Source of the DNA: Candidatus Binatia bacterium | GTDB lineage: Bacteria > Desulfobacterota > Binatia > UBA12015 | Assembly (NCBI GenBank): GCA_019749875.1 | Contig: JAIEPK010000309.1 | Span: 1-41,747 of the forward strand | Reading direction: 5' to 3' | DNA: 41,747 bases | In this document: positions 19,031-22,432 of the stretch, one piece after another | How the letters are laid out: every line of letters begins with the position of its first letter | Position numbering within the stretch: position 1 is the first letter of the stretch | The notes under the pieces: model-generated | Database searches by the model: none | The model's input: only the letters and a program-made list of their open reading frames with translations | Told to the model about the DNA's origin: nothing | Program-made: the position numbers and the translations under genes

Positions 19031-19570
19031 ATGAAGTGCCCCGCCTGCCGTGACCTGAACAACCGGGTCATCGACTCCCGGCTCGGCAAGGACGGGGACG
19101 TGATCCGCCGCCGCCGCGAGTGCGAGAAGTGCGGCCGTCGCTTCACGACCTACGAGCGCGTCGAGGACTACCTGCCGGCCGTGGTCAAGAAGGACGGCCG
19201 GCGCGAGCCCTTCGATCGCCTGAAGATCGTCGCGGGGCTCACCAAGGCCTGCGAGAAGCGGCCGGTGAGCATCGAGACCATCGAGGAGCACGTCGACCGC
19301 ATCGAGCGCGCCCTGCTGGACCGCGCCGAGCGGGAAGTCCCGAGCTCCGTCATCGGCGAGGCCGTCATGCAGGCGCTCTACGAGCTGGACACCGTCGCCT
19401 ACGTGCGCTTCGCGTCGGTGTACCGGTCGTTCCAGGACGTCGAGCAGTTCATGAACGAGCTCGAGGATCTGCTGCGCGAGCGCCGCAGCCAGCGGGGCCT
19501 GAAGAGCCGGCTGGCGAAGGCGATCAAGCCGCCGCGACCGGCGGCGCGCAAGCCGACGCGGGACGGATGA
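19031..19570 (+). CDS. nrdR: Transcriptional regulator NrdR
   Basis: 179 residues. NrdR is a zinc-ribbon and ATP-cone repressor of ribonucleotide reductase genes. [17 protein letters not shown] and [12 protein letters not shown] form the four-cysteine zinc ribbon; [18 protein letters not shown] begins the ATP-cone. A basic C-terminal tail of ~30 residues ([20 protein letters not shown]) extends past the family core. The glyA-nrdR-ribD order is widely conserved. It overlaps ribD by four bases. Confidence 0.96.
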
Positions 19571-20679
19571 CGGCCCGCGACCACGCGAGCGCGCGCGACG
19601 CGGAGTTCATGCGCATGGCCCTCGCGCTCGCACGGCGCGGTCTCGGGCGGACGCGGCCGAACCCACCGGTGGGTGCGGTGGTGGTGCGTGGCGGGCGCGT
19701 GGTCGGCAGCGGGTGGCACCGGCGTGCCGGTACCGCGCATGCGGAAGCGATCGCGCTCGCGCAGGCGGGAAGTGCGGCGCGCGGGGCGACGCTCTACCTC
19801 ACGCTCGAGCCGTGCACGCATCAGGGACGGATGCCGCCGTGTGCGCCGCAGGTGATCGCGTCGGGCGTCGCGCGGGTGGTCATCGGCGCGATCGATCCGA
19901 ATCCGATCGTGAGCCGTCGCGGCATCGCGCAATTGCGCCGCTCGGGCGTCGCGGTGACCACCGGCGTGGAGGGCGAGGCCGCGCAGGAGCTGATCGCCGG
20001 CTTCGCGCGCCACGTGGTGAGCGGCCGTCCGTTCGTCCGGCTGAAGCTCGCCGCCTCGGCCGATGGCCGCATCGCGACGCGGACCGGTGCTTCGCGCTGG
20101 ATCACCGGAGCGCCTGCGCGCCGCGTGGTGCACCGCTGGCGCAACGAGATGGACGCGGTGCTGGTCGGCGTCGACACCGTGATCGCCGACGATCCCGAGC
20201 TGACCTGCCGGCGCGCCGGCGGGCGCGATCCGGTGCGCGTCGTCGTGGACGGCAGCCTGCGCATTCCGGCGCGTGCCCGTCTGCTGCACGACGGTCGCGC
20301 GCCGGTCTGGATCGCGACCCGAGCCCGGCACGATCGCGTACGCGCCGCGCGGCTCGAGCGCGCCGGTGCGACCATCCTCGCGATCCCGTCGCGCGGTCGA
20401 CACGTCGATCTGGGCGCGCTGCTCGTGGCGCTCGGCCGGCGCGACGTGACCAGCGTGCTGGTCGAGGCCGGCGCGCATCTGTCGGCCGCGCTGATCGCGG
20501 GCGGGCACGTGGACGAGCTGTGCTGGTTTTCGGCCCCGCTCTTGATCGGGGGCGACGGCTTGCCGATGATCGGCCCGTTGGGCGTGCGCTCGCTGCGCGG
20601 CGCGTTCCCGCTGGCGGATCTGCGGGTCGAGCGCGTGGGCGACGACCTGCTGCACACGGCGCGCGTCGAGGCCCGTTGA
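19567..20679 (+). CDS. ribD: Bifunctional pyrimidine deaminase/reductase RibD
   Basis: 370 residues. The N-terminal deaminase domain has the zinc motif HAEAIAL...[12 protein letters not shown]; the C-terminal reductase begins near residue 155 ([19 protein letters not shown], later [20 protein letters not shown]). It catalyses the second and third steps after GTP cyclohydrolase II in riboflavin synthesis. The [10 protein letters not shown] segment has Arg where most RibDs have Gly. ribE (riboflavin synthase), usually next, is absent and the RibBA-like gene follows after 7 bases. Confidence 0.95.
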
Positions 20680-20686
20680 GGCAAAC

Positions 20687-21958
20687 GTGAAGAGCAACAG
20701 CGACTCGAAGATCCGGATCGCCCGCGGCGAGCAGAGCTTGCAGGCCGCGATGGCCGATCTCGCCGCCGGCAGGATGATCCTGGTGGTCGACGACGCGGAT
20801 CAGCCGCGCCAGGGCGAGGTCTGCGTCGCGGCGCAGCTCACGACGCAAGAGCACATCGGCTTCATGGCGGTGCACGCACGCGGGCTGGTCTGCCTGGCCG
20901 TGTTGCCGCCGACGCTGCTGCGGCTCGGCATCCCGCTGATGCCGGCCGATCGTGCCGCGGCCGAGTACGTCGCCTACGGTACGTCGTTCGAGGCGCGCCG
21001 CGGCGTCTCGACGGGCATCTCGGCGGCGGACCGGGCAGCGACCATCCGCGTCGCGATCGACGAGCGCAGCGGGCCGGCGGACATCGTCATGCCGGGGCAC
21101 GTGCCGCCGATCCAGGTCGCGCCGGGCGGAACGCTCGAGCGTCCCGGACGCATCGAGGCGGCGCTGGACGTGGTCCGGCTCGCAGCACTCCGGCCGGCGG
21201 CGACGGTGTGCACCGTTCTCGACCGCGAGGGCGAGGTCGCGCGCGGCGCGCTGCTGATCGCGTTCGCGCGCAAGCACAAGCTCAAGATGGTCTCGGTGGA
21301 CGCGGTGGTCCGGCACCGGCTGCGCACCGAGCTGCTGGTCGAGCGGCTCGACGAGCGCGAGCTCGACAGCGCCTACGGCGGGCGCTTCCGTGCGATCGCC
21401 TATCGCAACAAGGTCGACGACTCGGAGCACATGGCGCTGGTGCGGGGACGTCCGAAGCGCGACGAGGCGGTGTTGGTCCGGGTGCACTCGCAGTGCTTGA
21501 CGGGCGACGTGCTGGGGTCGCGGCGCTGCGACTGCGGCGAGCAGCTCGAGGCCGCGGTGCGCATGATCGCCGACGCCGGCCGCGGCGTGCTCGTGTATCT
21601 GCACCAGGAAGGGCGCGGCATCGGCCTTGCGAACAAGATCCGCGCCTACGCCCTGCAGGACAAGGGGCTCGACACCGTCGAGGCGAACCTCGAGCTCGGC
21701 TTCACCGACGATCCGCGCGACTACGGCATCAGCGCACAGATCCTGCGTGACCTCGGCATTTCGAGCGTCAAGCTGCTGACCAACAACGCGCGCAAGATCA
21801 GCGGCCTCACCAGCTACGGGATCCAGGTGACGGAGCGCGTTCCGATCGAGGCGGCGCCCCACCCGCTGAACATCGGCTACCTGCGGACGAAGCGGGCGAA
21901 GCTCGGGCATCTCTTGACCGGGCTCGAAGGGGGCGGTCGCCCGGAAGGAGAAGCCTGA
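20687..21958 (+). CDS. ribA: RibBA-like: inactive-looking DHBP synthase half, intact GTP cyclohydrolase II
   Basis: 423 residues. The C-terminal GTP cyclohydrolase II domain (about 215-410) is complete: zinc cysteines 270, 281 and 283 in [19 protein letters not shown], and [20 protein letters not shown]. The N-terminal domain has the fold of DHBP synthase ([22 protein letters not shown]) but the metal and catalytic motif DDEDRENEGD is [10 protein letters not shown] (35-44), the histidine of GHTEA is Arg155 (GRIEA), and the late CEL glutamate is Thr176. I infer that this half does not make DHBP and that only the ribA activity remains. It is flanked by ribD and ribH, with no gap before ribH. 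Confidence 0.9.
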
Positions 21959-22432
21959 GTGCGCGAGATCGTCGGCAAGCCGTCGGGCGCGGGCGTGCGC
22001 ATCGCGATCGTGGTGGCGCGCTTCAACCGCTCGGTCACCGAGTCGTTGCTCGACGGTGCGCTCGAGGGCCTGCGTGCGCACGGCGTCGCGGACGACGCCG
22101 TGGACGTGCTGCGCGTCCCGGGCGCGTTCGAGATCACCGTCGCGGCCGAGCATTGTGCGGCGAGCGGCCGTTATGCCGCGATCGTCTGCCTCGGCGCCGT
22201 CGTGCGCGGCGAGACGCCGCACTTCGAGTTCATCTCGCGCGAAGTGAGCCGCGGCGTGAACGACGTCGCATGCCGGCACCGGATCCCGGTCGCGTTCGGC
22301 GTGCTCACCACCGACAACATGGAGCAGGCGCTCGCCCGGGCCGGTGAGGGGCACGGAAACAAGGGCTACGAGGCGGCGGTCACGGCGCTCGAGATGGCCG
22401 CGCTGCTGCGCGAGCACGCGCGGCTCGGCTGA
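21959..22432 (+). CDS. ribH: Lumazine synthase
   Basis: 157 residues, GTG start directly after the ribBA stop with GGAAGGAGAAG upstream. RibH joins DHBP and the RibD product to make 6,7-dimethyl-8-ribityllumazine. Motifs: [28 protein letters not shown], and [15 protein letters not shown] with the catalytic histidine. It needs DHBP, which must come from another enzyme if the upstream RibB-like half is inactive. Confidence 0.96.

Follow-up and report, generated by a model that had tools for sequence, protein, structure and literature searches.

A degenerate DHBP synthase domain in the RibBA proteins of Binatia may complete the active site of a catalytic paralogue

The riboflavin operon on contig JAIEPK010000309.1 of Candidatus Binatia bacterium (assembly GCA_019749875.1) encodes a RibBA protein in which the DHBP synthase (DHBPS) half has lost its catalytic residues. 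This raises the question as to what such a half is kept for, and which protein supplies DHBP to the pathway. A preliminary description, made from the letters of this 41,747-nucleotide stretch (here, the window), proposed that the half is a pseudo-enzyme, perhaps regulatory or structural for the GTP cyclohydrolase II (GCHII) to which it is fused, and that DHBP is made by another gene.

Results

The RibBA of the window lacks its own DHBPS residues

The gene in question, here called A, lies on the forward strand at 20687..21958 and encodes 423 amino acids from a GTG start. It sits in a ribD-A-ribH operon, all on the same strand, with the deaminase/reductase gene ribD immediately 5' (19567..20679; TIGR00326, 341.6 bits against a cut-off of 156.35) across a gap of 7 bases, and the lumazine synthase gene ribH immediately 3' (21959..22432; TIGR00114, 161.6 bits, cut-off 84.6). 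Two domains make up the protein: the DHBPS half (20744..21313, forward strand; Pfam PF00926, aa 20-209, 184.6 bits) and the GCHII half (21344..21844, forward strand; Pfam PF00925, aa 220-386).

Residues are numbered here as in E. coli RibB for the DHBPS half and E. coli RibA for the GCHII half. The first half of A aligns without gaps to residues 16-206 of E. coli RibB (1G57/1IEZ) and carries the substitutions R37Q, E38P, N39R, E40Q, D42E, H153R, T154I and E174T, so that all seven cis residues by which a DHBP synthase may be recognized (R37, E38, E40, D42, H/Q153, T154 and E174) are replaced. The changes lie in loop 1 (20789..20818), where another ten-residue stretch replaces DDEDRENEGD, in GRIEA in place of G(H/Q)TEA (21146..21160), and in CTV in place of CEL (21209..21217), each on the forward strand. 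This alignment bears out the loss of catalytic residues and the three motif changes (in loop 1, GHTEA to GRIEA and CEL to CTV) given in the preliminary description and, judged by the half's own residues, supports its view of a pseudo-enzyme. The substitution of His153, listed there among the active-site residues, is real but not diagnostic by itself, since this position is Gln rather than His in 94/107 otherwise intact RibBA from other bacteria; we therefore dropped it as a test. Gln prevails here in intact RibBA although a role in binding metal and phosphate is described for His.

Profile scores were likewise dropped as a test of death. The half is predicted to have the DHBPS fold and scores 155.5 bits on TIGR00506 (ribB), below the cut-off of 177.45, which is not decisive because 16 A-type proteins of other genomes lie barely above it; those that we read still lack the cis residues. 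The GCHII half appears intact, with C54, C65, C67, Y105, D126, R128, T149 and K154 all present and a score of 246 bits on TIGR00505 (ribA; cut-off 205.85). Alignments to E. coli RibA, including 2BZ0, place the three zinc cysteines, whose retention had been noted from the sequence, at C270, C281 and C283 of A (21494..21535, forward strand).

A second RibBA-like gene carries the reciprocal lesion

Exactly one further DHBPS match is present in the genome that contains the window. This gene, here called B, is not adjacent to A and lies at ~23.6-24.8 kb of another sequence record (G000:C680), which also holds the riboflavin synthase gene ribE (G000:C680:77200-77742), outside the ribD-ribBA-ribH operon and ~53 kb from B. 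The DHBPS half of B has RENEGD, GQTEA and CEI and all seven cis residues, and in its GCHII half the three zinc cysteines are replaced by Tyr, Arg and Thr. Its scores mirror those of A, with TIGR00506 passed (256 bits) and TIGR00505 failed (88.7 bits). Given the intact DHBPS residues of B, RibH should receive its DHBP from this protein, acting either by itself or jointly with A, in agreement with the earlier expectation that another gene carries this activity. The same genome encodes a third GCHII-like protein (L081, G000:C256:2500-5500) with the unusual zinc motif HSSCVTSE...CDCDC. Its score falls far short of the RibA cut-off, and other Binatia have similar genes (e.g., L082).

The paired lesions are conserved across Binatia

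We surveyed 140 Binatia genomes from 70 genera and read active-site residues in 90 A-type and 85 B-type proteins. DHBPS matches were found in 140/140, almost always two per genome, and the GCHII results agree; the simplest account of the genomes with a single match would be that contigs are missing. Degenerate DHBPS residues are likewise seen in a genome of the same genus (94% identity) and in the other Binatia A-types read, and in 39 relatives within the class the one-sided lesion is the same in every A-type and every B-type protein read. The A-types form one clade in our trees and the B-types another; their positions among the outgroups, which bear on whether the duplication took place inside Binatia, are weakly supported.

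The pair is absent from the sampled relatives outside Binatia. Of the 37 other genomes sampled from the phylum, 35 carry a RibB match above the cut-off, usually one, and the single RibBAs read from these phylum members are intact. The only intact bifunctional RibBA in the Binatia sample (L173, G107:C163) stands where B would be expected, accompanied by a normal A-type gene, and may reflect horizontal replacement or contamination.

Several unusual arrangements were also seen. One genome (G008; L017 and L042) has two A-type copies, both with dead cis loops and a retained lid. A record titled as a Klebsiella pneumoniae MAG (L094, CAMBFS010000014.1) holds a clear Binatia A-type gene and is probably mislabelled. 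In two genomes of one genus of the window's family (G012 and G013; L086 1-897 and L087 1-897), the C-terminal part of riboflavin synthase is fused with an extra DHBPS domain that is mostly intact (DREGEGD, TGVS, PGHVF, GHTEA and CEVM).

A retains the residues that cross the subunit interface

DHBPS active sites lie at the homodimer interface, and in the Vibrio cholerae enzyme one monomer contributes loops 1-3 and the other loops 4 (103'-111') and 5 (132'-138') (PMC5228156). Its Thr108 is strictly conserved and has Asp114 as hydrogen-bond partner, and the equivalent Thr-to-Ser change inactivates the M. jannaschii enzyme, as cited in the same work (PMC5228156). E. coli numbers are those of V. 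cholerae minus one, so that Thr108 corresponds to T107; the trans role that we assign to T107 and D113 comes largely from structures and simulation of this other species' enzyme.

Both trans loops are retained in A. Loop 4, the lid, is a 13-residue stretch at 20996..21034 (forward strand) with T109 and D115 as the equivalents of T107 and D113, and loop 5 is MPGH at 21089..21100 (forward strand) with H138 as the equivalent of H136. The residues that the preliminary description had listed as fold signals are lid residues of the active site that cross between subunits. Their retention in the dead half is the main point, and that description had missed it.

To compare the two sets of residues, we aligned the 90 A and 85 B proteins with the 107 intact RibBA, of which 104 have T107. 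Binatia fall into two lineages: families f2 and f12 make up lineage II, and all others, with that of the window, belong to lineage I. Each lineage is one clade in the A tree and in the B tree. Among lineage I A-types, T107, D113 and H136 are each present in 73/73, R37 in 0/74 and E174 in 3/74. The corresponding counts for B are T107 3/70 (G011, G088 and G097), D113 65/70, H136 57/70, and both R37 and E174 70/70. At position 107, lineage I B proteins have S, R, H, G, N, A, L, K or E, with Ser the commonest (33/70). Met133 of loop 5 (M135 of A) is derived, A-specific and conserved in 71/73.

When lid columns were excluded from tree building, A was found to have changed 0, 0 and 0 times at positions 107, 113 and 136, versus 27, 26, 21, 14, 17 and 17 times at 37, 38, 42, 153, 154 and 174, whereas B has changed 20, 4 and 3 times at the first three positions and 0 times at each of the other six. 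Entropy of loop 4 is 0.31 bits in A versus 1.30 in B, although A is the more variable protein elsewhere (1.60 versus 0.84). Of the positions conserved in intact enzymes, 16/16 informative cis-loop positions favour B and 6/6 trans-loop positions favour A (Fisher p 1.3e-5, with positions that are not independent of one another). Lineage II serves as a control and shows the opposite outcome: T107, D113 and H136 are present in 15/15 B proteins, and A has T107 in 0/16 and D113 in 0/16. The lid loop is thus fully kept in A only where B has lost it, and its loss from the lineage II A-types indicates that the loop is dispensable for the fold of A and for GCHII. The contrast between lineages represents one evolutionary split; within lineage I, position 107 has changed about 20 times in B and never in A. 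A reciprocal composite GCHII site was also sought, and at the GCHII active-site positions A keeps every residue and B uniquely keeps none. At sequence level, then, the reciprocal loss, its conservation throughout the class and the opposite fates of cis and trans residues are established.

The three intact enzymes outside Binatia that lack T107 have Ser there. For two of them, the genome has another DHBPS copy, which bears T107, and the match in the third genome carries an internal stop. The two-copy genomes outside Binatia, each with one Ser107 copy, are represented by L226, L227, L325 and L327 (G173/G201) and by L324 and L326 (G200); in G201, the copy without Ser107 also has a partly degraded GCHII half. 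These cases possibly represent early stages of the process that gave rise to A and B, and this small sample fits the idea of a composite site.

The degenerate half is predicted to fold and is under purifying selection

The single-chain model of A has a pLDDT of 88 and a pTM of 0.83, with values above 90 across most of the DHBPS half. A fold search with this model ranked Mycobacterium tuberculosis RibA2 first and Acinetobacter baumannii RibBX next, along with many RibB structures, so that a DHBPS fold is still predicted for the dead half. For B, the model (pLDDT 80) is confident in the DHBPS half and poorly defined in the GCHII active-site region. In four close pairs of A-types, omega is 0.04-0.19 for the pseudo-DHBPS half versus 0.02-0.10 for the GCHII half, which indicates purifying selection; these pairs exclude the window's own genus, as synonymous sites were saturated.

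Discussion

Our data suggest that Binatia divided a bifunctional RibBA between paralogues, with GCHII assigned to A and DHBPS catalysis to B, and that in lineage I the two would share a composite DHBPS site; we put the probability of this reading at roughly 60%. A and B would pair through their DHBPS halves to form one productive site, to which B would contribute loops 1-3 (R37, E38, E40, D42, R150, Q153, T154 and E174) and the pseudo-half of A would contribute, in trans, lid loop 4 (T107 and D113) and loop 5 (H136). The opposite site, built from the cis residues of A and the trans residues of B, would be doubly dead. In lineage II, B has the full set and presumably acts as a homodimer, and the lid of A has decayed. 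Since A keeps the subunit-crossing residues and B has lost the one that matters most, the DHBPS of B is the most likely beneficiary of the half, and a pseudo-half that lends its lid to a catalytic B appears the simplest reading for lineage I. Several points weigh against a composite site: three lineage I B proteins keep T107, the A and B genes are not neighbours, a single split underlies the contrast between lineages, the trans role of T107 and D113 is largely derived from another species' enzyme, and Ser, the commonest replacement at position 107 of B, might be tolerated, although the equivalent change is reported to abolish activity in M. jannaschii (as cited in PMC5228156). We favour by a narrower measure the further proposition that the heteromer is obligate, with A's dead half donating the trans half-site to B, and that the first two committed enzymes of riboflavin synthesis are in this way physically tied across the class.

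The alternative that survives best, although we consider it doubtful, is that the dead half has no role beyond scaffolding or regulating the GCHII fused to it, as first proposed for this gene, and that B is a self-sufficient DHBPS homodimer that tolerates a relaxed lid. No A-type read lacks the half, purifying selection acts on it, and there is a precedent in the X domain of Shewanella RibBX, which is reported to influence its RibB domain (PMC10012899). However, this alternative leaves unexplained both the 0 changes at subunit-crossing residues of A, compared with 14-27 at six cis residues, and the loss of T107 from B only where A keeps it. As a leading idea a role for the half in GCHII is unsupported, since the residues kept at 100% reach the DHBPS site of the neighbouring subunit.

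It is improbable that the half merely survives from the duplication as a passive relic, decaying without a current role. The lineage II A-types, which have lost cis and trans residues alike, look like such a relic, but T107, D113 and H136 are perfectly kept across 73 lineage I sequences, and purifying selection and the lack of any A-type read without the half also speak against it. Even less probable is that the half still makes DHBP, or catalyses a new reaction, with rearranged residues. Its model retains the DHBPS fold, and R150 and E155 are often present; yet the replacements of E174 and of the acidic loop 1 are diverse and vary by family, and no new conserved constellation appears in the pocket, the A-specific conserved residues being only I80, G96, M133 and L176. 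Finally, the source genome is fragmented (680 contigs), but a sequencing, assembly or contamination artefact is ruled out for the lesions of A by their equivalents in 90 A-types from independent genomes, some of them single-contig assemblies.

Parts of the arrangement have parallels in known systems. B resembles RibBX of Shewanella, Bradyrhizobium and Aeromonas and of A. baumannii (6MNZ, the second match of B by PDB sequence) in its predicted combination of a live DHBPS half and a GCHII-like half without zinc cysteines; A is the reverse. RibBX functions have been described (PMC10012899), and in A. salmonicida a monocistronic ribA provides GCHII separately, and the RibB half functions alone (PMC10012899). 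In Binatia, by contrast, the source of GCHII would be another RibBA whose DHBPS half is dead, and B lacks the lid threonine, unlike A. baumannii RibBX, which retains TTGIS. Among solved two-domain structures, M. tuberculosis RibA2 (Rv1415, 4I14) is the nearest to A and B in sequence or fold; it differs from both in having the two active sites present in sequence.

Reciprocal one-sided losses are also known from Arabidopsis, where assays and E. coli complementation established that RIBA3 has lost DHBPS and RIBA2 has lost GCHII (PMC3509567). A shares with RIBA3 the loss of DHBPS residues and the retention of those of GCHII, a working likeness given that A belongs to its own Binatia clade. Arabidopsis retains the bifunctional RIBA1 as its main enzyme, whereas nearly all Binatia genomes are without a bifunctional enzyme, and we saw no cis/trans active-site reciprocity reported for RIBA2 and RIBA3 (PMC3509567). 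A mechanistic analogy for the dead half is offered by the trypanosome prozymes of deoxyhypusine synthase and AdoMetDC, dead paralogues required for the full activity of an impaired partner (PMC3663545, PMC5201418); the likeness of A to such an activator is drawn from reciprocal residue conservation. The prozymes are eukaryotic and belong to other enzymes, and in Binatia the dead half is part of a polypeptide that also carries a different riboflavin pathway enzyme, which is live. In the literature that we searched, which includes few subscription papers, we found no relevant report of a DHBPS heteromer or heterodimer or of a riboflavin pseudo-enzyme.

The annotation "bifunctional RibBA" is wrong for both A and B in Binatia. 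If our main reading is correct, this would be, within that literature, the first case of a DHBP synthase whose activity requires a heteromer with a pseudo-enzyme. It would also provide an unusually clean record of how duplication turned a homodimer into an obligate heteromer, a record that rests on two sister lineages with opposite outcomes and on the separation of cis and trans roles at the level of single residues. Such an arrangement would link both entry enzymes of riboflavin synthesis, which are required in a fixed ratio.
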